Positions 38,313 to 56,784 of a stretch of 64,000 bases of DNA are shown piece by piece. The notes under the pieces were generated by a model. It was not told where the DNA came from, did no database searches, and worked only from the letters and a program-made list of their open reading frames with translations. Both the position numbers and the translations under genes were made by a program. This DNA is from Candidatus Methylobacter favarea (GTDB lineage Bacteria; Pseudomonadota; Gammaproteobacteria; Methylococcales; Methylomonadaceae), in the NCBI RefSeq assembly GCF_902806695.1, contig NZ_CADCXN010000091.1:1-64000 (forward strand). Direction: 5' to 3'. Positions within the stretch are counted from its first letter, which is position 1; each line of letters begins with the position of its first letter.

Positions 38313-38352
38313 TTGTAACAGAATTGTAATAATAGAGTAATTAAGCTGTCAT
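38313..38352 (+). promoter_or_regulatory. PhoB-box array, four half-sites, porin promoter
   Basis: Four 7-bp half-sites at exact 11-bp spacing: TTGTAAC (38313), TTGTAAT (38324), GAGTAAT (38335) and CTGTCAT (38346). The last is the perfect PhoB half-site; the others match 4 to 5 of 7 positions (5 to 6 if C is allowed last). The array ends 53 bp before the start codon of an OprO/OprP-type porin, the expected place for PhoB activation. By-eye finding. Confidence 0.6.
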
Positions 38353-38405
38353 TTTCCGGCCTTATTCTTGCTCTGGTAATTTTTTAATAACAACCGAGAG
38401 CATAA

Positions 38406-40034
38406 ATGAATTTCTCTAAACTTACATTGGCAATCGCAACCCTGTTAGGCGCAAGCGCATCATCCGGGGCTTTTGCTATTGATCTTTATGTGGATACCAA
38501 GACCAAGCAGCTTTACGCAGAACCGGGTCCGGGCCGGCAAAAAATGGGATCTTTCGTGCAGGTTGATGAAGCCGCCCCGAAACCTGCGGCTAAAGCCGGG
38601 GACACCGATGAAATAGCTGCTGTTCGTGAGGATTTAGCATTAAAAACTAACGAAATTAAAGCGCTTCAAGAACACATGACTGAGACAGAAGCAGTTAAAG
38701 TTAAGTTGGGAGATAAAGGTCTGGAAATTGAATCCAGTGACAAGAATTTTAAAATGGCTATGGGCGGACGTCTGCAGCTTGATGGTCAATTCAACGAAAA
38801 TGATCACAATATTCCGCAAAATGCACGGTTGAATAATGGCGCAGGCGTTCGTCGCGGCCGTTACCATATGGAAGGCACGCTTTACAAAGATTACGATTTC
38901 AAATTTGAATATGATTTCGTTCGCGGCAACGGCTCAACTGCAGCCGGTATCACCGATGCGTGGGCAGAATATACAGGCTTCAAGCCCTTCTCGGTTACAG
39001 TCGGACAATTTAAAGAGCCGTTCAGCTTGGAATCCGTTACAAGTAATCGCTTCCTAACCTTCGTAGAGCGTTCATTGCCTAATAATGCTTTTATAGAATT
39101 CGCTAATCCCTATCTATTAGGTATTAGCGGCCAATCCTTTGGGGAAAGATGGACTGCGCGCGCCGCACTCCAGGCAGAACCAATCGGCGGCGGCGGCTAC
39201 AACAATAATTCATCGTTAAATAATCAAGGCAATGCTAACCGGAATGGCCCAAGCGGCAATCCAACTTATGGGGTTACAGGTCGTGCAACTTTTCTGCCGA
39301 TTTTTAACAGCAAGACCGAATTACTCCATATAGGCGCCTCAGGCTCCTACCGTACCGTTAACAATACCAATAATGGCGCCAACGCTGCTACTGCGGCCGC
39401 CACCGGCGGCGCTAACACCACAAGCCCAACTGGCTTGGCATTCGCCAGCCAAGTGAGCGATGTAGACCGCTCCAATTGGGCAAATACCGGGATATTAACT
39501 GATACTTTAGGCACGCCAAACAGAAGAGTATTAAAGGATTATTACCGGGTAGGTGCCGAGTTAGCGGGCATACACGGCCCTCTTTCTTTCCAAAGTGAAT
39601 ATATACGTACTCAACTCAACGGTACAACCTATGATTCAAGCGATCATTTAGATGGCTATTATGTATATGCCACTTATTTTCTGACAGGGGAATCGCGTAC
39701 TTATGATGCCAAGAAAGGGGCGTTCGGGCGTCAAAAACCAAATCGTAACTTCGACCTTAAAAATGGCGGCTGGGGTGCGTGGGAAGTGGCTTCCCGCTTT
39801 GATGCGCTGGACATGAATACAGCTCATGTTAATGGCGGGCGTCTCCAAAGTGGAACATTGGCTTTAAACTGGTACCTCAATCCTCATGTACGAGTTATGT
39901 TAGATTATTCTCATATATTCAGTAATAAAACCATTAATACAGGCTTTGTTGGAGGAACTCGCGGAAGCCTCGCTTCCAATACCAGCGGGCAAAACCCGGA
40001 CATATTTATGGTACGTACTCAACTCGACTGGTAA
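38406..40034 (+). CDS. Phosphate-selective porin (OprO/OprP family)
   Basis: A 542-residue outer-membrane porin of the OprO/OprP family, whose members take up phosphate or polyphosphate. A signal peptide spans residues 1-24 (cut after GAFA). Next come a DLYVDTKTKQLY segment, a short coiled coil near 65-95, and then the barrel from about 100, starting FKMAMGGRLQLDGQFNEND, with GVRRGRYHMEGTLYKDYDFKFEYDF near 140-165 and TVGQFKEPFSLESVTSNRFLTFVERS near 200-225 that are characteristic. The protein ends MVRTQLDW. Glycine/asparagine-rich loops near 255-330 are probably surface-exposed. Upstream is a four-half-site PhoB array; a strong terminator follows. Anion choice is inferred. Confidence 0.88.
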   Translation: MNFSKLTLAIATLLGASASSGAFAIDLYVDTKTKQLYAEPGPGRQKMGSFVQVDEAAPKPAAKAGDTDEIAAVREDLALKTNEIKALQEHMTETEAVKVKLGDKGLEIESSDKNFKMAMGGRLQLDGQFNENDHNIPQNARLNNGAGVRRGRYHMEGTLYKDYDFKFEYDFVRGNGSTAAGITDAWAEYTGFKPFSVTVGQFKEPFSLESVTSNRFLTFVERSLPNNAFIEFANPYLLGISGQSFGERWTARAALQAEPIGGGGYNNNSSLNNQGNANRNGPSGNPTYGVTGRATFLPIFNSKTELLHIGASGSYRTVNNTNNGANAATAAATGGANTTSPTGLAFASQVSDVDRSNWANTGILTDTLGTPNRRVLKDYYRVGAELAGIHGPLSFQSEYIRTQLNGTTYDSSDHLDGYYVYATYFLTGESRTYDAKKGAFGRQKPNRNFDLKNGGWGAWEVASRFDALDMNTAHVNGGRLQSGTLALNWYLNPHVRVMLDYSHIFSNKTINTGFVGGTRGSLASNTSGQNPDIFMVRTQLDW

Positions 40035-40139
40035 CGACTATATAAGATTTGCTTGATCTAAAAAATTATTATCAGTGACAATCCGGCGTGAATTTCCCTC
40101 AACGCAAGCTATGATTAGCTTAAAGAGTCGCTGAACCAG

Positions 40140-40172
40140 GCCGCACTGGCTTTAATAAGTGCGGCTTTTTTT
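40140..40172 (+). terminator. Rho-independent terminator of the porin gene
   Basis: An 8-bp perfect stem, GCCGCACT (40140-40147) with AGTGCGGC (40158-40165), a 10-nt loop and a run of seven T follow the porin stop by about 100 bp. This is a textbook intrinsic terminator and separates the porin from the next lipoprotein gene. Confidence 0.9.
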
Positions 40173-40251
40173 ATGTGCCAGAATTCATATATCCTATGCA
40201 GTCTGCGAAGCTTATCAAGCTTTCAGCAAGACCTTATTCATAGCTGTATAT

Positions 40252-41793
40252 ATGGAACTGACATTGAAAACTTGTAATATTATCAAACTGCTGCCGATAC
40301 TAATTCTGGGTGCTTGCGCATCGGCCCCGACAGCACCCTATGGTTGGGGTATAGAGCCTGTCAGTCTCTATGATTCGGGCTATGAAAAAGGTACGGAAAT
40401 TATCAGCGTGCAGCCATCCACTTTGCGAGCGGTGCTCAGCAATTTCGAGACCGGTGAAGTTGATGTGCTGGATATCAGCCATCCCCGTCACTTGCAGAGA
40501 ATAGCGCGTTTCGACCTGAAACTAAACAACGGGGAAGAATTGACCTCGGTGGCTTTTCATCCTTCTCTGAACATGTTTGCGGCAGTGATTGATGCCGGCA
40601 GCAGTCCCGGCAGGCTGGAAATTCGTTCGGCGTCAACCGGTGAAATGATAGACCGCAACGCTGTCGGCTTTGGGCCTGATTCAGTGGTTTTTTCTAAAGA
40701 CGGCAAGCTTGCGCTGATCGCAAATGAAGGGGAAGACTTTTTGTTTGAGCCCTCAAAAAATCAGTTTTTTAAGCCGGAGGGCAGTATCTCGATTATTCAT
40801 CTGAATCTATCTGGCCATATCAAAAGCCACAAAAATCTTGAGCTGGCAAACATGCTCAATTATGAAGGGTTTGTTGTCAGCCAAGGCGGGAGATTCCTGG
40901 AAAGAGACATCGACTGGAACGGCGACGGCGTCATCAGTAAGCAGATGGATTTTGATGGTAATGGGGTTATAGAAAAGAAAAAAGTCAATTTGGGCCACTT
41001 TGAAGGTCATGATGTTTTTGGCGTCGAAACCCATGGCGAACGGAAGCTGCTAATTCCTGTAAAAACCCATTCTCCAGCCTTGTTGGAGCCCGAATATATC
41101 GCCATTACGCCCGATGCGAGCAAAGCTTATGTGACTTTACAGGAAGACGATGTGGTAGCGGTCGTCGATTTGATCAACGAACAGATTATCAGCTACTACG
41201 GTCTGGGGGCCGCCCGGCATAAAACCGATGCCCGCTATGACGGCTGGGTAAAATTTGACCAATCGATGACAGGTCTGCGCGAACCCGACGGCATTGCGAT
41301 GGCGGCCAGCGGCCGTTATTTTGTTACCGCCGATGAAGGCGACACCGAACCGGATGCTTCTCCATCTTCGGGGAAGCAGCCGGTCGGCGGCGGACGCTCG
41401 GTCAGTGTTTTTGATGCGGCGACCGGCACCTTGCTTGGCGATACCGGCAATCAACTGGACGAGATTGCCTTCGGAAATAAAGTCTATCCAGAACTGCGCA
41501 GCAACAAAAAAGGCTCGGAACCTGAAATGCTCGTTTCGTTTGATCTTGACGGCCTGCCTTTTGTAGCCGTCGGCATGGAAAGAGCCGGTGCAATTGAATT
41601 GATTTCCCTAGCCGACCCGTTTCATCCTGAAGTCGTCGCGCTGGGCAAGATTGCCGGCGATGAAAACAAGTCGCCCGAAGGGATCGAGCATTTTATAATT
41701 AACGGCGAGCATTATCTGCTGACGGCCAATGAAATGAGCGGAACGGTTGAATGTTTTAAAATTGTTAGAATCAATCCGCTTAGCGGACAGTAA
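40252..41793 (+). CDS. Choice-of-anchor-I / phosphatase-like beta-propeller lipoprotein
   Basis: A 513-residue lipoprotein: the signal peptide ends in lipobox LGAC (cysteine near residue 21 of the ATG at 40252; a longer upstream frame from 40159 is unlikely because that start lies in the terminator). The body looks like a beta propeller of the choice-of-anchor-I/PhoX-like group: DVLDISHPRHLQRIARFDL, TSVAFHPSLNMFAAVI, GPDSVVFSKDGKLALIANEGED, PEYIAITPDASKAYVTLQEDDVVAVVD, REPDGIAMAASGRYFVTADEGD and SPEGIEHFIINGEHYLLTANE. Two calcium-loop-like runs, DWNGDGVI and DFDGNGVI, lie near 220-240. Members often sit near phosphate genes, and an enzymatic (phosphatase or esterase) role is suggested but unproven. 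It sits between the Pho porin and a flippase. Confidence 0.78.
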   Translation: MELTLKTCNIIKLLPILILGACASAPTAPYGWGIEPVSLYDSGYEKGTEIISVQPSTLRAVLSNFETGEVDVLDISHPRHLQRIARFDLKLNNGEELTSVAFHPSLNMFAAVIDAGSSPGRLEIRSASTGEMIDRNAVGFGPDSVVFSKDGKLALIANEGEDFLFEPSKNQFFKPEGSISIIHLNLSGHIKSHKNLELANMLNYEGFVVSQGGRFLERDIDWNGDGVISKQMDFDGNGVIEKKKVNLGHFEGHDVFGVETHGERKLLIPVKTHSPALLEPEYIAITPDASKAYVTLQEDDVVAVVDLINEQIISYYGLGAARHKTDARYDGWVKFDQSMTGLREPDGIAMAASGRYFVTADEGDTEPDASPSSGKQPVGGGRSVSVFDAATGTLLGDTGNQLDEIAFGNKVYPELRSNKKGSEPEMLVSFDLDGLPFVAVGMERAGAIELISLADPFHPEVVALGKIAGDENKSPEGIEHFIINGEHYLLTANEMSGTVECFKIVRINPLSGQ

Positions 41794-42068
41794 TACCGTT
41801 GACAGTCCATTGGCGGGAGGTGAATCCCTGAAGTCAGCACATTCCGGGTAGCCTCGTAGGCTGGAAAGTGAGAGCTTCAAGATTTAGATTAGCCTTAATT
41901 TGGTTATTTTCATCAAGTCTTACTTGCCTTGCTGATCAGTAATATCGCGTTGTGTTGTCTTTCAATAACAAGTGATGTCTTAAAACCCCGCCAGCTTTAT
42001 CAGGTCACCCTTGCTGACGTGATAGTTTTTACTCAACCCAATCAAAACAATCAACGGATGGATTTATA

Positions 42069-43397
42069 TTGAACCCCAACTTTTCCGTCCAGCCTGATAA
42101 CTTCAGTTCCCTGATGCTGTTTGGCTTAAGCCTGAGCAATTATGCGTTAATGTATTGGGCGAATATTTTTTTGGACAGGCATCTGGCTATCAACGCGTTT
42201 GATGATTACAGCGTGGCGGTTTCCATCGTCACTTTGCTATCGACATTGGCCACTTTGGGATTGGAAAAGTACGCGCTGCGTGTGATTGCTCTCTATATTG
42301 AGCGCGAAAACTGGCCGCGCTTGCGCGGGTTTTGGCTGTTTTCGCTGCGCGTTATCGTCCTTTTCAGCCTATTGCTGATGGGCGTACTCAGTCTGGGACT
42401 GGAAACTTTTTTGGCTTTGCATAATGCTGATTATCATATTGCGATTGTAATTTATGCGGGCTTTCTGCCCGTGATTGCACTTTGCCTGTTTTTGATTGAA
42501 GTAATTACAGTCTACGGTGTGCAGATCCTGGCTTTAACGTTGTATCGTTTTTTTCTGCCTGCGGTGTTTTTGCTGCTGATTACCGCGTTAGACGATTTCC
42601 AGCTTGAAGTAACGGCTGTTTCTGCGGTGCTGTGTCTTGGCACAGCCTGGTGTTTGACGCTGATACTGATGCTGATTACGGCGCGGGCCGCCAGTCCTGG
42701 AGAGCTCGGAAAGACAAAAGCAAACTTGAAAAACCGGCCTTTGTGGCTGAAAAATTCTCTGCCATTATTGATAAGCAGTGTAATGATGACAGTGCTCACC
42801 AGCGCCGGCACTATTATTCTGGAAGTATTGCATCCCTCTGAAGCGGTGGTGGGTATTTACGCGGTCGCCATGCAAACAACGGCCTTAATTTCGCTGATCG
42901 GCACCTCGACCAATCGTTATTATTTGCCGATGCTGGTGGTTTTGCTGGAGCGGCGCGACCAGTGCGCCATTAATGCTTTACTCCATAAGCGCATGCGTTT
43001 GATTGCCGGTTTTATGATAGTTTTTATCAGCATTATCGGCGTTTGTGGGCGGCAAATACTTGAACTGTTTGGTTCAGAATTTTCAGAGGGTTACGCGACT
43101 TTATTCATTACTGCGGCCGGAGCTGCATTCAGCACACTGTTTTCCGATTCACCGTATTACCTGCACTTTGTGGGTCGCAATGGTTTGGTAGTCAGTTTAA
43201 TGTCAGCGGCTGCGATGAGTATGGTAGCCCTGAGTTTTATTCTGGGTTACCGCTACGGTTCAACTGGCGTTGCCCTGGCTTACGCTGTGCCGACAATGCT
43301 GCTGTTTTCCAGCCTGAAATGGCTGGCTAATCGGGATATGCGCAGCCTGTTTGCAATCAATGCGCCACCGGTTTCGACAAGCCGTAGAACGCACTGA
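42069..43397 (+). CDS. Oligosaccharide flippase family (MATE-like/Wzx) protein
   Basis: A 442-residue inner-membrane protein with about 12-14 helices of the polysaccharide biosynthesis/flippase family. The N-terminal segment SNYALMYWANIFLDRHLAINAFDDYSVAVSIVTLLSTLATLGLEKYALR corresponds to the first two family helices. AVVGIYAVAMQTTALISLIGTSTNRYYLP near residue 260 and GYATLFITAAGAAFSTLFSDSPYYLHFVGR near 340 follow. The start is a TTG at 42069, with GGATGG upstream; an internal ATG at residue 16 is the alternative. Its substrate is unknown. It could move a lipid-linked sugar, and no polysaccharide cluster surrounds it. Confidence 0.82.
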   Translation: MNPNFSVQPDNFSSLMLFGLSLSNYALMYWANIFLDRHLAINAFDDYSVAVSIVTLLSTLATLGLEKYALRVIALYIERENWPRLRGFWLFSLRVIVLFSLLLMGVLSLGLETFLALHNADYHIAIVIYAGFLPVIALCLFLIEVITVYGVQILALTLYRFFLPAVFLLLITALDDFQLEVTAVSAVLCLGTAWCLTLILMLITARAASPGELGKTKANLKNRPLWLKNSLPLLISSVMMTVLTSAGTIILEVLHPSEAVVGIYAVAMQTTALISLIGTSTNRYYLPMLVVLLERRDQCAINALLHKRMRLIAGFMIVFISIIGVCGRQILELFGSEFSEGYATLFITAAGAAFSTLFSDSPYYLHFVGRNGLVVSLMSAAAMSMVALSFILGYRYGSTGVALAYAVPTMLLFSSLKWLANRDMRSLFAINAPPVSTSRRTH

Positions 43398-43680
43398 GAA
43401 ACAAGGCTGATTCTGCAGCCCTGATTTGATATGATCCGTGGCGCACTTATCGTAGAGCCTGGATTTATTCGGATTTGCTACCCCTCACTTTGTATAGACG
43501 GGCCTTAACTTAAAGCCTATCAGGCAGAACAGGCTGACATCAATTTTAACGGTTGATCCTGATTCGCTCCTTATTTTCGAAGGTGCTGACCAGTTGCAAA
43601 GTATTATTTTATTAACAATGCCTGTTGTTAAACCGGTTCCGGTCTTGCAGCTTGTGCTCGTTATCCAGCGAAACAAGAAT

Positions 43681-43707
43681 AAAAAAGGCCGCTATTAACT
43701 AGCGGCC
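43681..43707 (-). terminator. Rho-independent terminator of phoX
   Basis: On the minus strand, a 7-bp stem (GGCCGCT/AGCGGCC at 43701-43707 and 43687-43693) with a 7-nt loop is followed by a run of six T. It lies 37 bp after the phoX stop codon at 43744, the right orientation and distance for its terminator. Confidence 0.88.
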
Positions 43708-43743: not shown

Positions 43744-45294
43744 CTATTCATGATATTTTCTGGGCTTAAAGCCGGTAATCCTGATCAAATCGTCAGTTGC
43801 GTAGTCATCGCGAGGCGCGCAATCGCTGCCGGCAACGCACGCCATATCATTGCTGTGCTGAACATGAACATAAGCCGTTTTGCCATCAGCGGTGAAGGCA
43901 AATCCGGTAGGCTCGGCGCTGCTGTCGCGAACAGACAGGACTTTCACGCAGCCGTCGGTTTTAACGTCACGATCTTCACCGTCAGGCAAACACGCCCATA
44001 TATCACCGAAAGGATTGTCTTCGATTACATACATATTGCCGGTGACAGGCTGGAAAGCCAGATTATCAGGCTGGTTAAGATCGGTATCGCCTTCTACTAC
44101 ACGGTTAGCCGCAGCCACTGCAAAGCCTTTGGACTCTGTGCTGTCGGCCAGATAAGTCAGGCCGTTGGCGTTGACATCAGGATTATTGACGGTTTTTTCA
44201 CCGCTGCCTGCCGGATTGGCATCAATCAGGCAAACCACTTCGCCATAGTTTTGAGCGCCGCTATTGCCGGTATTAGTCCAGCAGAACTTTACGCCTGCAT
44301 CGGTGTACATGGGATCGAAATGACCATCTTCGGGACGGTAAAAACCGGTCGCAGAGTTAGCGAAAGCCGAGGCGCGCAAGTTAGCCGTATCAACTTTTAC
44401 CCAGGCGCCTTCGCCGATTTCACAGCCTTGGCCGAATTGCGGAAAGCTGCTGCTGGTTCTGGACTGGCAAGAAGCCTGAAAAGCATAGACATTGCCAGCC
44501 GCCAGCGGCGACTGATCCAGGCGCCTGACAGGCGTGCCGTCCCAAAGCGCAGCAGGGACAAACTTGAACAGACTGCCGCCGTCAGCATCAGGGCCGCCCG
44601 ATCCCGGACGTTCTTCGTCACCGTAATAAACCACACCTTCATGAGTGATATCAAGCCCTTCCCATGCCAGCTTGCCGACCGCGCCGCGATATTCCACTTG
44701 CCCTGTTACGGCATGGCCCGTACTGTCAATTGTGTCGCTTGTGCCGCGTGCGACCAACGTCAGTTCAGAGGCAGTCATCGGATTAAGAATTTCATACAGA
44801 CCGCCGTCATCGGCTTCTTCTGTGGCAACAATAGTATTCCAGGGCGTGCGGCGAATTCCATCGCAACGGGTCATGCCGCGCAGAATCGTTTTTACTTTGC
44901 CGCTGATCAGATTGACTGTTTGTATGGAAGGCTTCAGTTTGGGTTTGCCGTCAGGATACGTACCGACGGCAGCGTTATCGGCTTCGACGCAGCTGACGAT
45001 ATGAGTAGGCGTCGAATCGTTAGGCCAGAAAGCTAGCATATCTGAATTTTGCGCGGATTTTCGCGTGACAATCCTGGCATCTAGGCCGGGCGCCACGTTA
45101 ATCAGATCCAATGCCGATTGCAGTGGAACTCGCGGTACAGTTACACTCTCAGGAGCGTCTAAAGGATTGATAATGCCAAAGTATTTGTTGGCATGGGCGG
45201 CCAGGTGATGCTGAACTTTCATGCCGAAATCATCGGCCGCGGCTACAATACCCGGCAAGGTCAGGCTTATAGTCAAAATTAGGGGTTTTTTCAT
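43744..45294 (-). CDS. phoX: PhoX-family alkaline phosphatase
   Basis: A 516-residue secreted calcium/iron-dependent phosphatase of the PhoX (DUF839) group that frees phosphate from phosphomonoesters. Signal peptide: residues 1-20 (MKKPLILTISLTLPGIVAAA). Key features are RCDGIRRTPWNTIVATEEADDG near residue 135-155, GKLAWEGLDITHEGVVYYGDE near 205, DGGSLFKFVPA, QPDNLAFQPVTGNMYVIEDNPFGDIWA near 415, and EPTGFAFTADGKTAYVHVQHS near 470. A frame from 45342 is longer, but the ATG at 45294 follows GGAGAG and gives the signal peptide. Four 11-bp-phased PhoB-like half-sites lie about 80 bp upstream. A terminator follows. An antisense frame of 428 codons is a shadow. Confidence 0.88.
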   Translation of the reverse strand: MKKPLILTISLTLPGIVAAADDFGMKVQHHLAAHANKYFGIINPLDAPESVTVPRVPLQSALDLINVAPGLDARIVTRKSAQNSDMLAFWPNDSTPTHIVSCVEADNAAVGTYPDGKPKLKPSIQTVNLISGKVKTILRGMTRCDGIRRTPWNTIVATEEADDGGLYEILNPMTASELTLVARGTSDTIDSTGHAVTGQVEYRGAVGKLAWEGLDITHEGVVYYGDEERPGSGGPDADGGSLFKFVPAALWDGTPVRRLDQSPLAAGNVYAFQASCQSRTSSSFPQFGQGCEIGEGAWVKVDTANLRASAFANSATGFYRPEDGHFDPMYTDAGVKFCWTNTGNSGAQNYGEVVCLIDANPAGSGEKTVNNPDVNANGLTYLADSTESKGFAVAAANRVVEGDTDLNQPDNLAFQPVTGNMYVIEDNPFGDIWACLPDGEDRDVKTDGCVKVLSVRDSSAEPTGFAFTADGKTAYVHVQHSNDMACVAGSDCAPRDDYATDDLIRITGFKPRKYHE

Positions 45295-45373
45295 TATAGG
45301 CTCTCCTGGTTTAGTTTTTAATCGGCTAATGGCTGATGCCACTAACCTTAGACTGGCACTATAAGGGCCTCTT

Positions 45374-45413
45374 ATTAATAACTAGTTACAGTTTCGTGAA
45401 TATTATGTGAATG
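45374..45413 (-). promoter_or_regulatory. PhoB-box-like array upstream of phoX
   Basis: On the minus strand, four 7-bp half-sites at 11-bp spacing: CATTCAC, TATTCAC, CTGTAAC and TATTAAT, matching the PhoB half-site at 4, 3, 5 and 3 positions of 7 (5, 4 and 6 for the first three if C is allowed last). The third is strongest. The array lies 80 bp before the phoX start codon. Phasing is more convincing than any single half-site. Confidence 0.5.
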
Positions 45414-47203: not shown

Positions 47204-47243
47204 CTGACGCTGATTTTTCATACTCTTGTCACCACCCTTTCAC
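47204..47243 (+). promoter_or_regulatory. PhoB-box-like array upstream of the phosphodiesterase
   Basis: Four half-sites at exact 11-bp spacing: CTGACGC (47204), TTTTCAT (47215), TTGTCAC (47226) and CTTTCAC (47237), matching CTGTCA(T/C) at 5, 5, 6 and 6 of 7 positions. The two right-hand sites are the strongest. The array lies about 140 bp before a small ORF and 250 bp before the glycerophosphodiester phosphodiesterase start. Confidence 0.6.
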
Positions 47244-47385: not shown

Positions 47386-47460
47386 ATGAATAGGCTACAA
47401 ATCCCCGGCAGCACAGCCTTGAAGTTGCTGTTGCCGGTTCCCTTCAGGCCGGCGCTTTAA
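47386..47460 (+). CDS. Candidate 24-residue leader ORF with strong ribosome site
   Basis: An ATG at 47386 preceded by AAGGAG at about seven bases opens a frame of 24 codons ending at TAA 47460. The peptide is hydrophobic with a few basic residues (starts MNRLQIPG, ends PFRPAL). It lies 36 bp before the phosphodiesterase start. It may be a leader peptide that couples or attenuates translation, or it may be incidental. The ribosome site is better than that of most genes here. Confidence 0.35.
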   Translation: MNRLQIPGSTALKLLLPVPFRPAL

Positions 47461-47496
47461 AGCCTGGCGCTCTAACTGACCTTGATGGAGACTATC

Positions 47497-48741
47497 ATGA
47501 GCTTGTGTAAAAACGTTCTTGCTATAGCGGCTGTACTGGCAGCGCTATTGCCACTCGTCACTATAGCCCATCAAGACGATGACCATAGGCATGACCGGCA
47601 TGGCAGGCGAAATGTCCAGTTGGGCCCAAGACCCTTTTTTCTGGTCGAGGATATGGAGAACAGCGAGCTTAAAAGCGCGCTTCAGGAGTGTTCAAAAGGT
47701 CCTTTTTACAGAACCGATTTTTCGATTGGCCACCGCGGGGCTGCCTTGCAGTTCCCTGAACATACGCAGCAATCCTATGAAGCCGCTGCCCGGCTGGGAG
47801 CGGGTATTGTCGAGTGTGATGTCACTTTTACCAAGGATAAAGAACTGGTATGCCGGCATTCGCAGTGTGATCTGGAAACAACGACTAATATTCTGGATAC
47901 GAATTTAGCAAAAAAGTGTTCCGTTCAAGCCGATTTCAGCAGTGCCACCCCTTATAAAAATGTTAAATGTTGCACCAGCGATATTACGCTTGCTGAATTC
48001 AAGACCCTTAAGGGCAAGATGGATGCAGGCAATCGTAATGCCAAAACGCTTGCGGAATTTATGAATGCTACGCCCGGCTTCCGCACGGACTTATATGCCG
48101 GCAACGGCGTGCTGATGACTCATAAAGAAAGCATTGAATTGTTCAAAAAACTGGGCGTAAAGATGACGCCCGAATTAAAAGCCCCCGATGTTGAAATGCC
48201 GTTTAACGGCTTCACCCAGCAGGCTTATGCTCAAAAAATGCTTAATGAATATAAGATGGCCGGCGTTAAAGCCAAAAACGTGTACCCGCAGTCCTTTAAT
48301 CTCGAAGACGTCCGCTACTGGCTTGCCAATGAACCGGAATTCGGTAGCCAGGCAGTTTTTCTCGAAGATTTGAATGTGCCGGAAGATTCGCCTGCAGCGC
48401 TTGCAAGACTGCCATTACTGGCTGCGGAAGGGGTGAAAATCGTGGCGCCGCCGATGTGGGTTCTGGTGACGCTCGATGCCAATCACAAAATCATCCCTTC
48501 GGACTACGCGAAAGCCGCCAAAGCGGCGGGCTTGGACATTATAACCTGGACGCTGGAGCGTTCCGGTCTTCTGAAAGACGGCGGCGGTTACTATTATCAA
48601 TCGGTTACAGACGCTGTTAAAACCGATGGCGACACCCTGGTAATGCTTGATGTGCTTGCGCAGGATGTGGGCATACTCGGCATCTTCTCGGACTGGCCGG
48701 CCACCGTAACCTATTATGCCAACTGCATGAACCTGAAGTAA
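47497..48741 (+). CDS. Glycerophosphodiester phosphodiesterase
   Basis: A 414-residue secreted GDPD-family enzyme that cleaves glycerophosphodiesters to glycerol 3-phosphate and an alcohol. Signal peptide: residues 1-24 (ends TIA). The TIM-barrel motifs are [54 protein letters not shown] near 75-130, with the catalytic histidines (HRGA and the H before SQCDL) and the E and D metal ligands. An insert near 140-190 contains paired cysteines, and [12 protein letters not shown] near 340 is the end of the barrel. The usual ENT appears as EHT. The ATG at 47497 follows GGAG; the TTG frame from 47482 is less likely. Behind a PhoB-like array, so phosphate scavenging is likely. Confidence 0.9.
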
Positions 48742-49850: not shown

Positions 49851-49862
49851 AATGTCTCCCTA

Positions 49863-51071
49863 TTATTTGGAAATAGTGATTTCCGGCGCCCCTTGCCGTG
49901 CCAGATCGGTCATGGTCATTTGAAAAATCTGGCATAATAGACGAAAGCCTTCGCGGTTCCATTGATAGCCGGATTCCGGTTTGAGCGCATAATGCCAACT
50001 GCCAAACTGTACGCTGATATCGGCAGCCGACTCGTCATCGCTAACCAGCAAGGCCATCGTGTTCACCGGATTCTCTCTGACATAAGGGGTTTGCGGATGT
50101 TTGGCAACAGTATATTCGGGGTCGTCGCTGATGGACTGGCCGATAAAGTTCAGCACATTATGAAAGCTGCGCAAGCGGAAAACCCCATGTATCGGCCACT
50201 GTCCGCCAGGATGACCAGGGCGGATGTCGACGCTGACATCATTGTCTGACTCCTGATTGGCTTCTTCCTGCAAACGTATGCGCTCTTCATTGCTTAGCGT
50301 CATCGGATCATAATTGGTCAGCAGGATACGCCCGATTACCCGCTTGCTCAATGTAATTTGCTTAGGCTTAGCCTGATATACGATACTGAATTCTTTTTGC
50401 AGCGCAGCCATTTGTTCGGCCGTCAATGCTTCGGCCGGCATAGTCCAATGCTGATCAAACATCAACGGTTCGACAAATAACTGATGTCTATCCTGAATAG
50501 CCGACAAATGCAGCACGGCTTGACGGAACAACCGGTAGCCTTCAGCAGCGCGGGGTTTATTTAGATAAATGCCGCTGTTTGTGCCGCCTTTAATCCGCAC
50601 CTCGCCGGCCAGCAAGCGCAAAAGCAAGTCCACATCAACGCCTTGCCGCAGCAGCATGGTCAGTTTGCTTTCCTGAAACGGGGTAAGCAAGCGCCGGGTA
50701 AACTCCTCGCCCTCAATCGGCACGATGCTGATAGTCGGGTTCTCGGAAATCGAGCCGCCGAACACCGGCGTCAATAACGAGCCGGATTCTCCGGTAAGAG
50801 CCGGCGTCGCTCCGGCATTGAATTGAAAATTAAAGGTTGCGGCAATATTGGAAACGCCGGTGAAATGCATGGGCTGATGTTGATGGGCGCGGGCAATATT
50901 CAACAACAGTTGTTTGGACAGAATGTCCGTAGTGGCCTTGTCATAGGCGATGACAGCGCGATCCAGCGCTATCGGAGAAAAGCAGCCCTGAAGGCCGCAT
51001 AAAACCAGCATTGTCAGCCATCTTGCAGGGGCTTTGGTTAACACTAGCGGGCGGTAGAGATTGAAGATCAT
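49863..51071 (-). CDS. Unrecognised lipoprotein
   Basis: A 402-residue lipoprotein. From the ATG at 51071 (AAGGA upstream; a longer frame goes to 51167) the signal is basic, hydrophobic and ends in a lipobox LQGC. The mature part begins SPIALDRAVIAYDKATTDILSKQLLLNIARAHQHQPMHFTGVSNIAATFNF, a run seen in a family of conserved secreted proteins whose role I do not know. Later segments include GIYLNKPRAAEGYRLFRQAVL near residue 175 and a C-terminal acidic-to-aromatic stretch (WHYALKPESGYQW). It is on the same strand as corA with a 12-bp gap. It may be exported to the periplasm or the outer membrane. Confidence 0.7.
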   Translation of the reverse strand: MIFNLYRPLVLTKAPARWLTMLVLCGLQGCFSPIALDRAVIAYDKATTDILSKQLLLNIARAHQHQPMHFTGVSNIAATFNFQFNAGATPALTGESGSLLTPVFGGSISENPTISIVPIEGEEFTRRLLTPFQESKLTMLLRQGVDVDLLLRLLAGEVRIKGGTNSGIYLNKPRAAEGYRLFRQAVLHLSAIQDRHQLFVEPLMFDQHWTMPAEALTAEQMAALQKEFSIVYQAKPKQITLSKRVIGRILLTNYDPMTLSNEERIRLQEEANQESDNDVSVDIRPGHPGGQWPIHGVFRLRSFHNVLNFIGQSISDDPEYTVAKHPQTPYVRENPVNTMALLVSDDESAADISVQFGSWHYALKPESGYQWNREGFRLLCQIFQMTMTDLARQGAPEITISK

Positions 51072-51307
51072 ATCGTTCCTTTGAATTTGGCCATAAGAAC
51101 AATAGGAAAGCCAACCCGGTAAGTCAAATTCTTTGATTCTGGCCAGGTTATAAAAGGCTGCGCTCATTCTTCAGTGACTATAAGAACTGTAAGGAAAAGA
51201 TTTATCGTACTTGGGTATAGAAGTGCCTGCTCATTGCTGCCATGTAGATGTACATACACTCCAGAAATAGGATAATTAACCCATCTTCGGCCTGATAGGG
51301 CAATCGC

Positions 51308-52486
51308 TCATTCTGGCCCCGCTGCGAGAGCAATCGCCGCTCTTTGGCGTTTGCTAAATGATAGCGGCGGAAGACGATCTGCGAGCAGGGTATTGACGAT
51401 CGTTGCGGAGGCGGCGGGTTTGGCAAAACGCAGGGCGTTGGCTTTCATCCGGCTCAATCTGTCCGGGTCTTCCAGCAAGCGCTCCAGTTTGAAGGGCAAA
51501 GTGGTCAAATCGTTGCACTTGACGGCGATGCCTTCTTCCAACAGATGATCGCTATTTCTTTCCTCCTGCCCCGGGATCGGAGCGACCACGCACATGGGCA
51601 GGCCGCAAGCAATAGCTTCGGCGGTCGTCATGCCGCCGGGCTTGCCGATAAAAATATCAGCCATTTTCATCAATTTGTGCATTTCATTGGTATAACCCAG
51701 AACTTTAAAGCTGGAACTTCGATTATTGATTAATTGTAAAATGCGCTGTTTCAGTTCGCCGTTGCGTCCACAGACAACCACTGTCTGCGCGTTGCTATTC
51801 AGGTTGAGCAGCCGCTCCACCATGAATTCGGTAGGCCCCAGGCCAAAGGCTCCCGCCGACAGCAGCAAAACCGGTTTTTCCGGGTTCAATTCCAGTTCCA
51901 GGCGGCTTTGTTCGCGGTTGAGGGGCTGTTGAAAAACGGCATCAATGGGGATGCCGGACACCGTGATTCTTTCGCTGGGAATGCCGAGTACTTCAAGATG
52001 CGCTCTGGTTTCATCGATAGCGACAAAATAGCGATGGAATGAGCGTGACAACCACATGGCGTGAAAGTCGAAATCGGTCACTACAATGGACAGATGCGCT
52101 TGCAATTGTTTCGCCGCAATCAGGTGAGAGATGATGCCGGCAGGCATGAAGTGCGTGCAGACCGTGATATGGGGGTCGAATTCCCGGATAAACCGCACCA
52201 GCGGTTTGGTATTCAGCCGGTCCAGCATGTGCCGCATCCGGTCAGTGTGCCAGGGCTCGTCGCTGGTTTTATACCACCAGCCCAGAAAATTGGGCGCGGA
52301 CCGCACCAGCGATGTGTAAAATCCGGAATAGAAGTCCCGGAACAGCTTGTTGGTGTATTGCAGCGCATCATTATTGATGACTTCGGCAACCCGGCTGTCA
52401 GCGGCAAAGGAAAGCTCCAACGCTTCGGCCGCTTTGATATGGCCGGCTCCCGCCCCGGCCGACATAATCAAAACCCGTTTTTTCAT
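51308..52486 (-). CDS. MGDG-synthase-like GT28 glycosyltransferase
   Basis: A 392-residue glycosyltransferase of the monogalactosyldiacylglycerol-synthase/processive diacylglycerol-glucosyltransferase group (GT28 fold, related to MurG). The N-terminal domain has MSAGAGAGHIKAAEAL at residues 9-24 and TDFDFHAMWLSRSFHRYFVAIDE near 138-160. The C-terminal domain has PVLLLSAGAFGLGPTEFMVERLL near 205 and IGKPGGMTTAEAIACGLPMCVVAPIPGQEERNSDHLLEEG near 280-318, which binds the sugar nucleotide. Likely acceptor: diacylglycerol. The nudix gene is 27 bp upstream on the same strand, with LplT beyond. Glycolipid synthesis fits the phosphate-stress setting. Confidence 0.88.
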   Translation of the reverse strand: MKKRVLIMSAGAGAGHIKAAEALELSFAADSRVAEVINNDALQYTNKLFRDFYSGFYTSLVRSAPNFLGWWYKTSDEPWHTDRMRHMLDRLNTKPLVRFIREFDPHITVCTHFMPAGIISHLIAAKQLQAHLSIVVTDFDFHAMWLSRSFHRYFVAIDETRAHLEVLGIPSERITVSGIPIDAVFQQPLNREQSRLELELNPEKPVLLLSAGAFGLGPTEFMVERLLNLNSNAQTVVVCGRNGELKQRILQLINNRSSSFKVLGYTNEMHKLMKMADIFIGKPGGMTTAEAIACGLPMCVVAPIPGQEERNSDHLLEEGIAVKCNDLTTLPFKLERLLEDPDRLSRMKANALRFAKPAASATIVNTLLADRLPPLSFSKRQRAAIALAAGPE

Positions 52487-52513
52487 CAGTTTATAATGGA
52501 CTTGTTTGGTTGT

Positions 52514-52966
52514 CTAAAACCCGGCATGTTGGTTACGCGGCAGCGCCGGTCGTCCGGTTTGCCGATAGTGTGTATAGTCGGCGAGTACCTGGGCGTGATC
52601 GAACGCCAGGGATTCAGGCAGCTCATTCAGGCTGAACAGCCGGCAATTTTTAGCATCATCCGCAGCTTCCGGCAAGCCCGATGCTTCGGCTACATACACA
52701 GCCGTCACGGTATGGCCGCGGGTATCTCGGGGAGGATCGGAATAGATGCCAAGCAAGGCTTGCAGTTGCACCTCCAGTCCGACTTCTTCCTTAGCCTCGC
52801 GCATTGCGGCGTATTCGACCATTTCGCCCAGATCGACAAAGCCGCCGGGAATTGCCCAGCCGTAGGGCGAATAAGCGCGCTCAATCAATACGATTGGGCG
52901 ATCGGGAAAATCAGTCAGCTCAATAATAATATCGGCAGCGAGCAACGGCGTAATAGGTTTAGGCAT
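52514..52966 (-). CDS. NUDIX hydrolase
   Basis: A 150-residue Nudix pyrophosphohydrolase. The Nudix box (GX5EX7REUXEEXGU) is at about residues 42-64: GFVDLGE, then REAKEEVGL. The N-terminal TPLLAADIIIELTDFPDRPIVLIERAYSPYGWAIPGG and the TRGHTVTAVYVAEASG strand support the fold. Substrate unknown; ADP-ribose or a nucleoside diphosphate derivative is possible. It overlaps no gene, but it is only 27 bp upstream of the GT28 gene and 67 bp after LplT, so all three may be cotranscribed. Confidence 0.88.
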   Translation of the reverse strand: MPKPITPLLAADIIIELTDFPDRPIVLIERAYSPYGWAIPGGFVDLGEMVEYAAMREAKEEVGLEVQLQALLGIYSDPPRDTRGHTVTAVYVAEASGLPEAADDAKNCRLFSLNELPESLAFDHAQVLADYTHYRQTGRPALPRNQHAGF

Positions 52967-53033
52967 AATAGCCTCCGAATAAATGGGGGTGGCAGTTCAA
53001 AGCCCGGGCTTAAGCGATGCTGTCCTTTTTTTA

Positions 53034-54347
53034 TTAATCCTGATCATGGCCATGCTTTTTAGTAAGCATGGCCATTGTAACCGATACCACTAACCCAAAC
53101 ACGATCACGATGGCATTTACCGACAAGCGGGCTCTGATCATCAGCGCGTAAGCGCCCAGCATCAACAAAATGCTGAGATTTTCGTTGAAGTTCTGTACGG
53201 CGATGGAATGTCCCGAGCCCATGAGCTGGTGCCCACGGTGCTGTAGCAAGGCATTCATCGGTATTAAAAAACTGCCGGCCAGGATGCCAATCAATATCAG
53301 CATCAGCACTGCCAGCCGCCAGTCGGTTATCCATGCCATTGCGGAAACGGCTAATCCCATGACTATTCCCAAGGGCAGTACTTTCACGGCATGAGCCAAT
53401 GGCACAGCCTTGGCCGCCGCAACAGAACCGATAGCAAGGCCGACTGCGACTAGCGCAGTCAATTGGGTTGCCTGCTCCAGATCGAGATTCAGCGCCGCCG
53501 CGGCCCAGGCGAGAATAATAAAACGCAAGCTCGTTCCTGCTCCCCAAAACAGCGAGGTTACCGCGAGAGATACTTGCCCTAACGAATCCTGCCACAGCAG
53601 CAGGAAAGTTCTCCGGAAATCCGCCAACAGCAATCTCGGCGTTCGATTCGATAAGGGGTGCTCAATGGGCAGCCTGGGAATGTAATAATTGAGTATCGCC
53701 GCCGCGAAATAAAGACCGAGGATGACCAAAATCGCGAACTCGGGGGCGGTATCAATGCCGCCATTGAACTCAAGCCCGCCCAGTTGCCGGACAACCTGAT
53801 CCTCAACGCGATGTCCAATCAATAAACCGCCCAGAATGGCGCCCAGAATGATAGCTGCAACGGTCAGACCTTCCATCCAGGCGTTGGCCCATACTAATTT
53901 ACAGGGGGGGAGATATTCGGTCAGAATGCCGTATTTAGCCGGCGAGTACATAGCTGCGCCAATGCCGACAAAACCATAGGCGAGTAAAGGATGCAAACCC
54001 GATAACATGGCCGTGCAACCCGCTATCTTGATACTGTTGCTAATGAACATGACCCGGCCTTTCGGCAGCGCATCGGAGAAGGCGCCAACAAAAGGCGCGA
54101 GCCCAATAAAGGCGAACACGAAGAACTGTTGTAATACCGGGGTTTGCCAGGCGGGCGCATCGAGATCTTTGAGCACGGCGATAGCGGCAAAGAGCAGGGC
54201 GTTATCGGCCAATGATGAAAAAAACTGGGCCGCAAGGATGGTGTTGAAGCCGCGACTTATAGAATTAATTGTGCTGTGCGGCGCCTGGAAAACCGGAATC
54301 GCTGCACTATAAATAGTTAAAAGTTTTCTTTTATTAGTTGTTTTCAT
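53034..54347 (-). CDS. lplT: Lysophospholipid transporter LplT (MFS)
   Basis: A 437-residue major-facilitator protein of the LplT type, which flips lysophospholipids across the inner membrane for re-acylation by Aas. About 12 helices. N-terminal segment: NTILAAQFFSSLADNALLFAAIAVL near residues 34-58; then FIGLAPFVGAFSDALPKGRVMFISNSIK near 75-105, SPAKYGILTEYLPP near 133-146 and WANAWMEGLTVAAIILGAILGGLL near 150-175. The C-terminus includes NFNENLSILLMLGAYALMIR. In enterobacteria lplT is fused or adjacent to aas; no acyltransferase is seen here. Lipid turnover fits the surrounding genes. Confidence 0.9.
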   Translation of the reverse strand: MKTTNKRKLLTIYSAAIPVFQAPHSTINSISRGFNTILAAQFFSSLADNALLFAAIAVLKDLDAPAWQTPVLQQFFVFAFIGLAPFVGAFSDALPKGRVMFISNSIKIAGCTAMLSGLHPLLAYGFVGIGAAMYSPAKYGILTEYLPPCKLVWANAWMEGLTVAAIILGAILGGLLIGHRVEDQVVRQLGGLEFNGGIDTAPEFAILVILGLYFAAAILNYYIPRLPIEHPLSNRTPRLLLADFRRTFLLLWQDSLGQVSLAVTSLFWGAGTSLRFIILAWAAAALNLDLEQATQLTALVAVGLAIGSVAAAKAVPLAHAVKVLPLGIVMGLAVSAMAWITDWRLAVLMLILIGILAGSFLIPMNALLQHRGHQLMGSGHSIAVQNFNENLSILLMLGAYALMIRARLSVNAIVIVFGLVVSVTMAMLTKKHGHDQD

Positions 54348-54577
54348 CAGCTATAAACTTAAACCGGTACTGGCGATAAGACCTGACTGTTCGTACTTAT
54401 GTACAGTACGAGGAGCGGGATTGGGAATTATTTTTGACCAGGCGGTGCCTAGGCAGTCCGTTCATAATGCCATATCAAGGAACGGCTTATCCTTAAAATT
54501 GATCGCCCTGAATTTATAATCATGGAATTCATCGGAAGTGTTACAGCTTGCGGCGGCCCAGGTTGACAACGGTGCAT

Positions 54578-55369
54578 TTATCCATGAAGGTTGGCTTCCA
54601 GAGTCTCACTATCGGCAATGGCTGGTTCAGTCTTGCGCCAGTTCACGAGTTCCAGCGTGCCGTCCGCGCGTTCCACGATGGCGGTGCAGCTTTCCACGAA
54701 ATCCCCGGTGTTGACATATAAAAATCCATCCATATCCTTGATTTCAGCGTGGTGTATATGCCCGCAAATAACGCCATCCAGGCCCTGGTCCTTAAGCGTG
54801 CTGACAATGCTGTCTTCATAATCGGAAATAAACTGAACCACATTCTTGACTTTAAACTTGACGAAGGCGGCAAGAGAGAAATTTGATTGTATGCCCAATA
54901 AACGCCTGCTTATTCGAAGAAGGCGATTCACCTGAAGCAGAAAGTCATAACCTTCGTTGCCCAGCTTGGCAACCCACTTGTGGCATTTGGCAATAGTGTC
55001 GTATTCATCGCCGTGGACAACCAGAAATTGCTTCCCTGTGGATGTGGTATGCACATCCGAGTTTTTGACGATAATGTCGCCAAAGACATAATTATCGTAC
55101 TCCCGGACGTTTTCGTCATGGTTCCCCGGTATATAGATGACCTGGGTGCCGTGTCTGGCCTTGCGCAGGACTTTCTGAATTACCGTATTATGATCCCTGG
55201 GCCAGTACATTTTTCTGGAAAGCGCCCAAAAATCGATAATGTCGCCTACCAGGTAAAGCTTTTCGCTGTCGTTGTGTTTTAGAAAATCGAGTAAAACATC
55301 GGCCTGGCATTGCGTGGAACCCAGGTGCAAATCGGAAATCCAGATGCTTCGATAGGTGTTGTTAGCCAT
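54578..55369 (-). CDS. PlcP-like metallophosphoesterase (annotated UDP-2,3-diacylglucosamine diphosphatase)
   Basis: A 263-residue calcineurin-fold phosphoesterase. The metal site motifs are ISDLHLG at residues 10-16, GDIIDFW near 43-49, GNHDE near 84, HGDEYD near 118 and GHIHHAEI near 203-210. The spacing and segments YLVGDIIDFWALSRKMYWPRDHNTVIQKVLRKARHGTQVIYIPGNHDENVREYDNYVFGDI match the PlcP/LpxH2-like group better than E. coli LpxH. PlcP is a phospholipase C that converts phospholipids to diacylglycerol under phosphate limitation. The neighbouring GT4 gene supports this role. The ATG at 55369 begins right at the conserved domain; a longer frame reaches 55444. Alternative function: lipid A precursor hydrolase. 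Confidence 0.8.
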   Translation of the reverse strand: MANNTYRSIWISDLHLGSTQCQADVLLDFLKHNDSEKLYLVGDIIDFWALSRKMYWPRDHNTVIQKVLRKARHGTQVIYIPGNHDENVREYDNYVFGDIIVKNSDVHTTSTGKQFLVVHGDEYDTIAKCHKWVAKLGNEGYDFLLQVNRLLRISRRLLGIQSNFSLAAFVKFKVKNVVQFISDYEDSIVSTLKDQGLDGVICGHIHHAEIKDMDGFLYVNTGDFVESCTAIVERADGTLELVNWRKTEPAIADSETLEANLHG

Positions 55370-55542
55370 AATCCAACTGTTAACATTATTACCGGCGTGA
55401 GCTGCTTTGTCGATGAGCCTTAGCCGGTATTTGCTGGTGCTCATGGCTCGCTAAAACCACTGAGGCGTTTTTTTAACGGGCAACATTTCATTGGGACAGG
55501 ATTTTTAACAACTTTATTTACTGAGTTTGAGCGTAACAGGAA

Positions 55543-56601
55543 TCATTTTACCCAATGCTCAACTATTGAATTATTTTTGCTATCCCTGCTTTTTTCAAAA
55601 GCAGGAACAAGGTTATAAAAAAATTGTCTGGTGCAATTAGCCCAGGAATAATTCAAGGCATAATTTCGACAGTCCTGCGCGTCTAATTGCAGAGCCTCGG
55701 CAATCGCCTTCTTTAAATTTTCATCCAGTCTGCCGACTTTATCGCTGCCAATCACATCCACCGGCCCATTAACCGGAAAAGCCGCAACCGGCAGGCCACT
55801 GGCCAGCGCCTCCAGCATGACAATGCCGAAGGTATCGGTGCGGCTCGGGAATACAAACACATCTGCTGCCGCCATATAATTGGCCAAGGGTTCACCGGTC
55901 TGAAAACCGGCAAAAACCGTATCAGGGAATCTGGCTTTAAGCTCTTTCAACTGCGGACCATCACCGACAACGATTTTTGTTCCGGCAAGCTCCAGGGATA
56001 AAAAAGCGTCGATGTTTTTTTCAATGGCCACTCTGCCGACAAACATGCATACAGGGCGCGGCAGTGATATAAATGTTTTATCCCTGGGATAATAAAAATC
56101 AGAATTTACGCCGCGGGACCAGCGCACCAGAGTATTTTTAAATCCTCTTGCCTTCAAATCCGATTCTACCGAGGACGTAGCCACCATGATCTTTTTTGCC
56201 GGCGCATGAAACCAGCGCAAAAATCCATAACCCCACGATACCGGGATCTTAAAACGCAAATTAACGTATTCTGCGAATAAGGTATGAAATGACGTGGTAA
56301 ACGCCAGCTTCCGGTTCAGGCAATATCGCCTCGCCGCAATTCCCAATGGCCCTTCAGTAGCTATATGAATGCGCTGGGGATTGAATTCATTAAGCAGCCT
56401 TTTTAGTTTTCTGTTACAGGCATACGCTAATCGAATGGAAGGGTAAGTCGGACAGGGAATTGTTATAAATTGATCCGGAGTAATGAGCTTGATTTGATGG
56501 CCGGCCCGTTCCAGAGTTGAACACGTATTTTCAATGGTTGTAACAACCCCGTTTATTTGGGGATGCCAAGCATCGCTGATGAACGCAATTCTCAATGTCA
56601 T
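55543..56601 (-). CDS. GT4 glycosyltransferase, Agt-like (glycolipid synthesis)
   Basis: A 352-residue GT-B glycosyltransferase. N-terminal RIAFISDAWHPQINGVVTTIENTCSTLERAGHQI (residues 4-37), then IHIATEGPLGIAARRYCL near 78, SFHTLFAEYVN near 104, SWGYGFLRWFHAPAKKIMVAT near 122 and WSRGVNSDFYYPRD near 160. The donor motif is PSRTDTFGIVMLEALASGLPVAAFPV near 253-278. These segments match the Agt-like enzymes that add sugars to diacylglycerol and are adjacent to plcP in alphaproteobacteria; donor sugar is unknown. It lies 170 bp upstream of the phosphoesterase on the same strand, consistent with one operon. A weak PhoB-like site lies upstream. Confidence 0.82.
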   Translation of the reverse strand: MTLRIAFISDAWHPQINGVVTTIENTCSTLERAGHQIKLITPDQFITIPCPTYPSIRLAYACNRKLKRLLNEFNPQRIHIATEGPLGIAARRYCLNRKLAFTTSFHTLFAEYVNLRFKIPVSWGYGFLRWFHAPAKKIMVATSSVESDLKARGFKNTLVRWSRGVNSDFYYPRDKTFISLPRPVCMFVGRVAIEKNIDAFLSLELAGTKIVVGDGPQLKELKARFPDTVFAGFQTGEPLANYMAAADVFVFPSRTDTFGIVMLEALASGLPVAAFPVNGPVDVIGSDKVGRLDENLKKAIAEALQLDAQDCRNYALNYSWANCTRQFFYNLVPAFEKSRDSKNNSIVEHWVK

Positions 56602-56752
56602 AAAGGCCCTGAATTATTGTTTATTTACGTGATAGCAGGATAAACGAGTCGTAGTAATCGCCAACCATGCTGATTTTTTAAATCGGAAAATCGGATCTGT
56701 AAATTTCGGATCAACAGGATGACTTGGCAAAAGCCAATGTTATAGAACAAAT

Positions 56753-56784
56753 ATGACTATTTAATGAAAACAGTCCGGTAACAA
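56753..56784 (-). promoter_or_regulatory. Weak PhoB-box-like site upstream of the Agt-like gene
   Basis: On the minus strand, two overlapping registers of 11-bp phased half-sites occur: TTGTTAC with CTGTTTT, and TTTTCAT with TAGTCAT. Each matches the consensus at 5 of 7 positions if C is allowed at the last position. The site is about 150-180 bp upstream of the start codon, farther than usual. It is weaker than the other arrays in this region. Confidence 0.3.

Follow-up and report, generated by a model that had tools for sequence, protein, structure and literature searches.

Lipid remodelling by PlcP and Agt has been demonstrated in a gammaproteobacterium, Pseudomonas aeruginosa, through Pho boxes, recombinant enzymes and mutants, and this bacterium makes MGDG and GADG at low phosphate (PMC8528852). 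For SAR86, too, plcP has been reported, in a study that also describes Pho boxes at clusters carrying the gene (PMC4796936), and a survey of 2022 reported it from every proteobacterial methanotroph, including those of type I (PMC9239053). In that survey agt adjoins plcP in type II and type Ib methanotrophs but is not found directly next to it in type Ia; a diacylglycerol glycosyltransferase is noted in the vicinity of plcP in Crenothrix and Methylobacter tundripaludum (PMC9239053). Here we analyse a region of the type Ia methanotroph Candidatus Methylobacter favarea in which genes for phosphate capture adjoin agt, plcP and further lipid genes. The labels type Ia and type Ib stand throughout for our families f1 and f4, judging by the named loci and by the layout of plcP and agt in the literature.

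The region occupies positions 38,313 to 56,784 of the window, by which we mean the whole stretch analysed, the first 64,000 nucleotides of the 104.8-kb contig NZ_CADCXN010000091.1 (genome of 4.07 Mb in 134 contigs). It probably serves the response of a Methylobacter-like type Ia methanotroph to phosphate starvation, under the control of PhoB, and combines phosphate capture with lipid exchange. A first-pass annotation, made from the sequence alone, had named eight genes here: an OprO/OprP porin, a propeller-like lipoprotein, PhoX, a glycerophosphodiester phosphodiesterase (GDPD), a glycosyltransferase of family GT28, LplT, a PlcP-like phosphoesterase and a glycosyltransferase of family GT4. All eight are real open reading frames (ORFs) at the positions given, with family support from profile searches against Pfam and NCBIfam. 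The novelty it implied for such a combination in a gammaproteobacterium is not supported, given the reports from P. aeruginosa (PMC8528852), SAR86 (PMC4796936) and proteobacterial methanotrophs (PMC9239053). The main features are as follows.

38314..38352, + strand: PhoB-like box of four 11-bp-phased half-sites upstream of OprO, ending 53 bp before the ATG
38406..40034, + strand: OprO/OprP-type outer-membrane porin (PF07396, Porin_O_P, 185 bits; Porin O and Porin P chains, E ~1e-26)
43744..45342, - strand: PhoX-like phosphatase (PF05787, 43.8 bits, cut-off 24; domain at residues 217-497 of 532)
45374..45412, - strand: PhoB-like box upstream of PhoX, two overlapping 2-mismatch matches
47216..47243, + strand: PhoB-like box upstream of GDPD, three perfect half-sites ~240-255 bp before the start
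47482..48741, + strand: GDPD with a signal-like N-terminus (PF03009, 77.5 bits)
51308..52486, - strand: GT28 diacylglycerol glycosyltransferase of UgtP/MGDG-synthase type (MGDG_synth, 89.9 bits)
52514..52966, - strand: Nudix hydrolase of the lipid module (family search)
53034..54347, - strand: LplT lysophospholipid transporter (NF008397, 548 bits, passing the equivalog cut-off of 297)
54578..55444, - strand: PlcP-like cytoplasmic metallophosphoesterase, lineage A (Pfam match above cut-off)
55543..56601, - strand: Agt-type GT4 diacylglycerol glycosyltransferase (Pfam match above cut-off)
56753..56769, - strand: two-half-site PhoB-like box TTTCATTAAATAGTCAT upstream of agt, then CTATAACAT

Among solved chains the porin matched Porin O and Porin P only; together with the family match this places it among the OprO/OprP porins, and it is predicted to be phosphate-selective.

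PhoB half-sites follow the consensus TKTMAY. The genome was scanned for three such half-sites with a period of 11 bp and at most two mismatches, the reversed pattern serving as control. There were 99 matches versus 71 for the control, so that most of the 2-mismatch matches must be due to chance. The GDPD box is the single match in the genome without any mismatch. Ten rows contained one mismatch, two of them at OprO, two at pst, one at an olsBA-like gene pair and five elsewhere (three inside ORFs, two at 447 and 530 bp before a start). The OprO rows are overlapping matches, i.e. four half-sites, and those at pst likewise overlap, 87 bp before PstS (298 bits). For the olsBA-like pair (own genome C53:18006-18033 and L141:4392-5982) the box lies 52 bp before the start, and the olsB- and olsA-like proteins scored 152 and 123 bits, below the equivalog cut-offs. 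A 2-mismatch match is found just upstream of phoB (335 bits). The scan therefore recovered Pho functions unasked; pstS, phoB and the olsBA-like pair serve as its internal positives.

Box scores were judged against two nulls, the first made of random windows of relatives' loci and a stricter one of the stretches that precede 453 ORFs of relatives; the latter includes spurious ORFs and perhaps real Pho genes and is therefore probably conservative. (A null drawn from the window itself was replaced, as the window held the sites.) By the stricter null the three-site scores were 23.5 for GDPD (p 0.007), 20.0 for both OprO and pstS (p 0.009 each), 18.6 for the olsB-like gene (p 0.013), 15.4 for PhoX (p 0.035) and 11.9 for the GT4 gene (p 0.060; two-site p 0.077), and no box was found in the upstream regions of GT28, Nudix, LplT and PlcP (p 0.5 or more). 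Relative to pstS, GDPD thus ranks above, OprO equal, PhoX lower and agt moderate. The phased half-sites noticed in the first-pass annotation at three transcription starts are borne out at OprO, PhoX and GDPD, all within 9 kb, with a fourth, weaker box at agt; the genome-wide ranking it had proposed sets the GDPD box apart as the sole perfect triple and puts OprO level with pstS. Phased 11-bp direct repeats that rank with those of pstS are a trait of the PhoB regulon; PhoB binding and induction are predicted.

The boxes recur in relatives. Fourteen of the 80 other genomes with an OprO match were checked; all 14 reach p<0.05 for three sites by the random-window null and 13 reach the stricter 5% mark, four phased half-sites being visible in several. 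Many plcP orthologues of named relatives are preceded by a CTTGTAACATAACTTTCAT-like box, and an own two-site box (p<0.05) is present in 53/71 by the random-window null and in 33/71 by the stricter one; with three half-sites at p<0.01 only 11/72 plcP upstream regions pass, two-site scoring showing this box better. As to agt, the element TTTCATTAAAnnGTCAT followed by an AT-rich hexamer precedes 15 of 17 type Ia orthologues examined, which are the most similar of 23 other f1 genomes with an agt match (the remaining six match at 51-55%). The motif search was written after the element had been seen, and this count is therefore a description rather than a test. The two f1 genes lacking the element are those of loci L155 and L159, the latter of which has a different box-like site, and the element was absent from the three sequences searched outside f1.

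In order to see how far the gene neighbourhood is conserved, as the first-pass annotation had proposed, we compared 74 named plcP loci, each extending up to 10 kb to either side and many cut by contig ends. Downstream sequence of 1.5 kb or more was present in 61 of them, and of these 31 carry lplT, 17 Nudix and 13 GT28 on that side of plcP. An agt orthologue beside plcP was found in none of the 74 (E 1e-10, up to 10 kb each side), apart from a remnant in locus L009 described below; no plcP lies in the stretch retrieved around any of the 17 type Ia agt orthologues. In other type Ia genomes agt is located at lplT, as seen in seven of 20 retrieved agt loci (L155, L158, L163-L167). Because these loci reach at most 10 kb per side and OprO lies more than 14 kb away in the window layout, linkage was tested by genome coordinates in 201 genomes, with a limit of 30 kb and the own genome excluded. 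The expectation takes a single genome size and allows neither for contig breaks nor for relatedness, and p values for the ten pairs are not adjusted for the number of tests or for relatedness. Within 30 kb, plcP and agt are linked in 25 of at least 54 genomes with both, and plcP and GT28 in 15 of at least 24. For the capture genes, linkage to plcP or agt was seen for OprO in 5 of at least 74 genomes (at most 1.6 expected, p 0.023), for GDPD in 3 of at least 35 (at most 0.7, p 0.03; 3/36 if the partial agt match of G111, left out here, is counted) and for PhoX in 1 of at least 17 (at most 0.4, p 0.34). PhoX and GDPD are linked in 3/15 genomes, all of one genus (p 0.001), OprO and PhoX in 1/7 (p 0.1), OprO and GDPD in 1/15 (p 0.2), Agt and GT28 in 1/15 and OprO and GT28 in 1/16 (p 0.23 each). 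In genome G120 an OprO 97% identical to that of the window lies ~32 kb from plcP, just beyond the limit, and in G143 PhoX, a choice-of-anchor I gene, OprO and a relative of the window's polysaccharide-synthesis-family gene stand together. The orders of genes around the capture and lipid genes differ between relatives. By these counts and orders the lipid module, as plcP-lplT-nudix-GT28 or agt-lplT, recurs widely, and the capture genes accompany it loosely and in changing sets. Conservation thus holds for the lipid half and mostly not for the capture half, where the excess of linkage is weak, and the whole region is not one conserved block.

The most serious alternative, to which we give a little less than an even chance, is that the lipid module, which recurs, and Pho-regulon capture genes, whose set changes, have come to lie side by side without selection for proximity. 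The rarity of capture linkage to plcP or agt, only weakly above expectation, and the variable gene orders are what this would predict. However, OprO is found near plcP or agt in different genera (g30, g41 and g45, in addition to the own genus), plcP, GDPD and PhoX lie within ~13.5 kb of one another in G022, plcP of L009 adjoins two phosphatase-family genes, and boxes of PhoB type occur on both halves of the region.

Within the lipid half, plcP of the window lacks a separate box; its start lies 98 bp behind agt, and the agt promoter carries one. Locus L009 of the one congener in the genome set, Methylobacter sp. STD1_208 (G120; JAQUOU010000001.1), is instructive in this respect. There agt consists of its first ~30 codons and a tail-like remnant before plcP, a full agt being located ~180 kb away on the same contig (G120:C1:106033). 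At the remnant site (9490-10001) the agt box is kept before plcP with both half-sites perfect; as it lies beyond 400 bp upstream of plcP, the 400-bp scan had missed it. The boxless plcP behind agt and the box retained in L009 together suggest that the agt promoter drives plcP in this genus. Near plcP of L009 there are also an unrelated GT4 gene and, adjoining plcP, the two phosphatase-family genes (PF04185; PhoX at 37.9 bits). The GT28 protein of the window matches models of MGDG synthase and diglucosyl-diacylglycerol synthase over nearly its whole length, with 231 bits to the latter, below its cut-off.

A more elaborate account, unlikely when taken as a whole, would give type Ia methanotrophs a remodelling route of their own, built on PlcP lineage A, return of lysophospholipids by LplT, two glycosyltransferases, mobile cassettes and a fusion. 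PlcP of lineage A would remove the head groups of lysophospholipids returned by LplT, and the unlike enzymes Agt and GT28 would rebuild phosphate-free lipids. The agt and plcP genes would move as Pho-boxed cassettes docking at lplT, and in the genus of the window these cassettes would have fused under the agt promoter, in a neighbourhood that collects phosphate-scavenging genes.

The identity of PlcP matters for any of these accounts. Its nearest relatives are records of Methylococcales and Methylobacter (88% identical near full length, up to 91% over partial sequences), and the calcineurin-type metal motifs (DxH, GDxxD, GNHD, H, GHxH) are invariant in 29 aligned PlcP sequences. A PlcP match was found in at least 151 of the 201 Methylococcales genomes, with two matches in at least nine of these. 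In seven of the nine listed two-match genomes, one match resembles lineage A, with 76-81% identity to the window protein, and the second shows 44-51%; two PlcP lineages thus coexist within Methylococcales. The type Ib rows, on the other side of the PlcP tree from the window, are mostly beside agt. In this tree the plasmid row of P. aeruginosa stands for the tested PlcP, its identity to PA3219 being assumed; the tested proteins of Sinorhizobium meliloti, Phaeobacter, SAR11 and OB3b are left out, and the root is unsure owing to a long LpxH outgroup row with many gaps. The S. meliloti homologue of locus L170, on a pSymB record, is not claimed here as the characterised PlcP, and the transporter adjoining it is not LplT.

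It is improbable that the metallophosphoesterase is instead LpxH-like, or another phosphoesterase, so that no phospholipid would be degraded here. Such a reading draws on the best named models, which are those of LpxH (~41-45 bits, far below the cut-offs), on the one solved relative, an LpxH, and on the separation of the lineage from the PlcP rows of type Ib, alphaproteobacteria and Pseudomonas. Against it, a true LpxH is encoded elsewhere in the genome (C58:125172, 277 bits, versus 41 bits for the window protein), and the window protein is 47-49% identical to homologues beside agt in Sphingomonas, Methylobacterium and P. aeruginosa. The invariant metal motifs also speak for a PlcP-type enzyme, as do two alignment columns that are fixed for different residues on either side of the tree, the box that plcP has for itself in many of the relatives, and the linkage of plcP to genes for diacylglycerol glycosyltransferases; such an enzyme would cleave phosphatidylglycerol or phosphatidylethanolamine to diacylglycerol.

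The GT4 protein could be compared with GTcp of SAR11, in which changes at G16, G82, G85, H104, R163, R190, K195, T257, F258, G259, E264 and W320 abolish activity (PMC8231724). All 12 residues are kept in the window protein at matching spacing, as G18, G84, G87 and H106 and, for the remainder, under the same numbers as in GTcp; D256 is present too. The diacylglycerol contacts H104, R163 and W320 of GTcp are among those kept. The protein is 45-63% identical to plcP-linked Agt proteins and in the Agt tree groups with those of type Ib methanotrophs, alphaproteobacteria and Pseudomonas, with a 100/99 branch to three other GT4 rows; within the Agt of Methylococcales, the type Ia rows make up a single clade. 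The protein is assigned to Agt, and transfer of glucose or glucuronate to diacylglycerol is predicted. That GT4 and GT28 serve a surface polysaccharide rather than membrane glycolipids, as 26 genome matches to the N-terminal GT4 family and a polysaccharide-synthesis-family gene in the region might suggest, is very improbable given the identity of GT4 to plcP-linked Agt, the essential residues and diacylglycerol contacts it keeps, and the near full-length fit of GT28 to the two synthase models.

Taken together, the genes, the promoter repeats, the recurrence of the boxes in relatives and the Agt residues make coupled phosphate capture and lipid exchange the best reading of the region. The first-pass annotation had proposed this coupling, which is well supported as a prediction, though not for the whole region as one conserved unit. 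Several observations weigh against it, beginning with the small number of relatives in which OprO, GDPD or PhoX lies near plcP or agt. The agt box is only moderate (p 0.06-0.08). The PF05787 match of the PhoX-like phosphatase is above the cut-off yet weak, and a sequence search against solved structures returned no relative of this protein. A box is seen in 7/7 PhoX relatives by the random-window null and in 4/7 by the stricter 5% mark; for GDPD the corresponding numbers are 6/14 and 2/14 (the 14 rows include the partial match L195, which may be no orthologue), so that conservation of Pho control is not clear for GDPD. Another GDPD row (L155) has p 0.085, and a different phased element is common to many GDPD relatives. 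Across the 230-bp gap between plcP and lplT a single transcript is only a prediction. T162 of GTcp is replaced by Ser in the window protein, and L56 falls outside the comparison; T162 is a predicted diacylglycerol contact that the GTcp study does not include with the strictly conserved ones (PMC8231724). Finally, a long 100/100 branch lies between lineage A and the rows of type Ib, alphaproteobacteria and Pseudomonas, and therefore the substrate of lineage A is assigned by homology only.

According to the coupled reading, PhoB would bind the 11-bp repeats when phosphate is low. OprO would pass phosphate across the outer membrane, the PhoX-like and GDPD enzymes would free phosphate and glycerol phosphate from organic sources, and the pst system, encoded elsewhere, would take up the phosphate. 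Transcription from the agt promoter would yield Agt and then, by read-through, PlcP, LplT, Nudix and GT28. On the cytoplasmic side PlcP would strip the phosphate head groups from phospholipids, and the resulting diacylglycerol would be converted to phosphate-free glycolipids by Agt (with glucose or glucuronate) and GT28 (with a hexose). The olsBA-like pair, elsewhere in the genome and with its own box, would add ornithine lipids, and LplT would bring lysophospholipids back to the cytoplasmic side.

The following genes accompany those discussed above; the last three entries, like the Nudix gene, were absent from the first-pass list.

40159..41793, + strand: choice-of-anchor I beta-propeller-like lipoprotein (PF22494, 97 bits, above the Pfam cut-off)
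42069-43397: polysaccharide-synthesis-family membrane protein (family match)
45622-46953 and 48861-49850 (-): two unlike CorA-type transporters
49863..51167, - strand: lipoprotein-like gene downstream of GT28

The choice-of-anchor I lipoprotein scored 192 bits in NCBIfam, below the cut-off of 300, and its gene adjoins OprO and PhoX in G143 too (locus L182). The lipoprotein-like gene matched no Pfam or NCBIfam family in the profile searches and recurs near plcP in L009, L053, L179 and L180. Relatives of the first CorA gene are located near plcP or OprO also in L020, L066, L073 and L176. Between the Pho box of GDPD and the GDPD start there is a short reading frame of 24 codons (47387-47461, + strand). 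Outside the region, an 861-aa protein (window 21760-24345, - strand) joins a type I phosphodiesterase domain to an endonuclease/exonuclease/phosphatase domain; its gene adjoins a GT4 gene at 24231-25523, and a like pair is present behind the lipid module in L009.

A literature search found nothing joining a Pho box with methanotrophs, and PlcP together with agt in methanotrophs in one paper alone (PMC9239053); judged by the titles listed, it found no link of LplT to lipid remodelling, the one paper with both PlcP and LplT being on a different topic. What is new here is that, in a type Ia methanotroph, agt is fused to a lineage-A plcP-lplT-nudix-GT28 module in surroundings with Pho boxes. The position of agt beside plcP, unseen in type Ia in the 2022 survey, provides a counter-example to the published absence. 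New as well are a plcP lineage that, judging from the tree, stands apart from the agt-linked PlcPs of type Ib, alphaproteobacteria and Pseudomonas, the recurrent linkage to lplT, and the agt box kept before plcP in a congener with a gutted agt. The region ties a lysophospholipid transporter to lipid remodelling and offers agt, lineage-A plcP and oprO as testable Pho-regulon markers for type Ia methanotrophs. Methanotrophs such as Methylobacter limit the release of methane from sediments, and phosphate may limit them.

Among the closest described systems is that of P. aeruginosa (PA3219-PA3218, PA0842), which, like the window, combines a gammaproteobacterial PlcP and a GT4 Agt with Pho boxes (PMC8528852). 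Unlike in the window, however, plcP precedes agt in the plasmid-borne pair of P. aeruginosa, with no lplT, Nudix or GT28 within 3 kb, and its PlcP, ~48% identical to that of the window, is on the opposite side of the tree. Remodelling of methanotroph lipids under phosphate shortage, predicted for the window, and a plcP adjoining agt are shared with Methylosinus trichosporium OB3b and type Ib (PMC9239053), whereas in the window agt lies upstream of a lineage-A plcP and is joined to lplT, Nudix and GT28. M. tundripaludum SV96 (L076) and OWC-G53F (L006) have plcP-lplT-GT28 as in the window, but their loci show no match to agt, OprO, PhoX or GDPD within up to 10 kb per side, and their plcP has its own box-like site. 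With the Pho regulon (PhoBR; PstS, OprO/OprP, PhoX and GlpQ-type enzymes) the region shares functions and 11-bp-phased half-sites; it differs in that the boxes of three capture genes lie within 9 kb and adjoin a lipid module.

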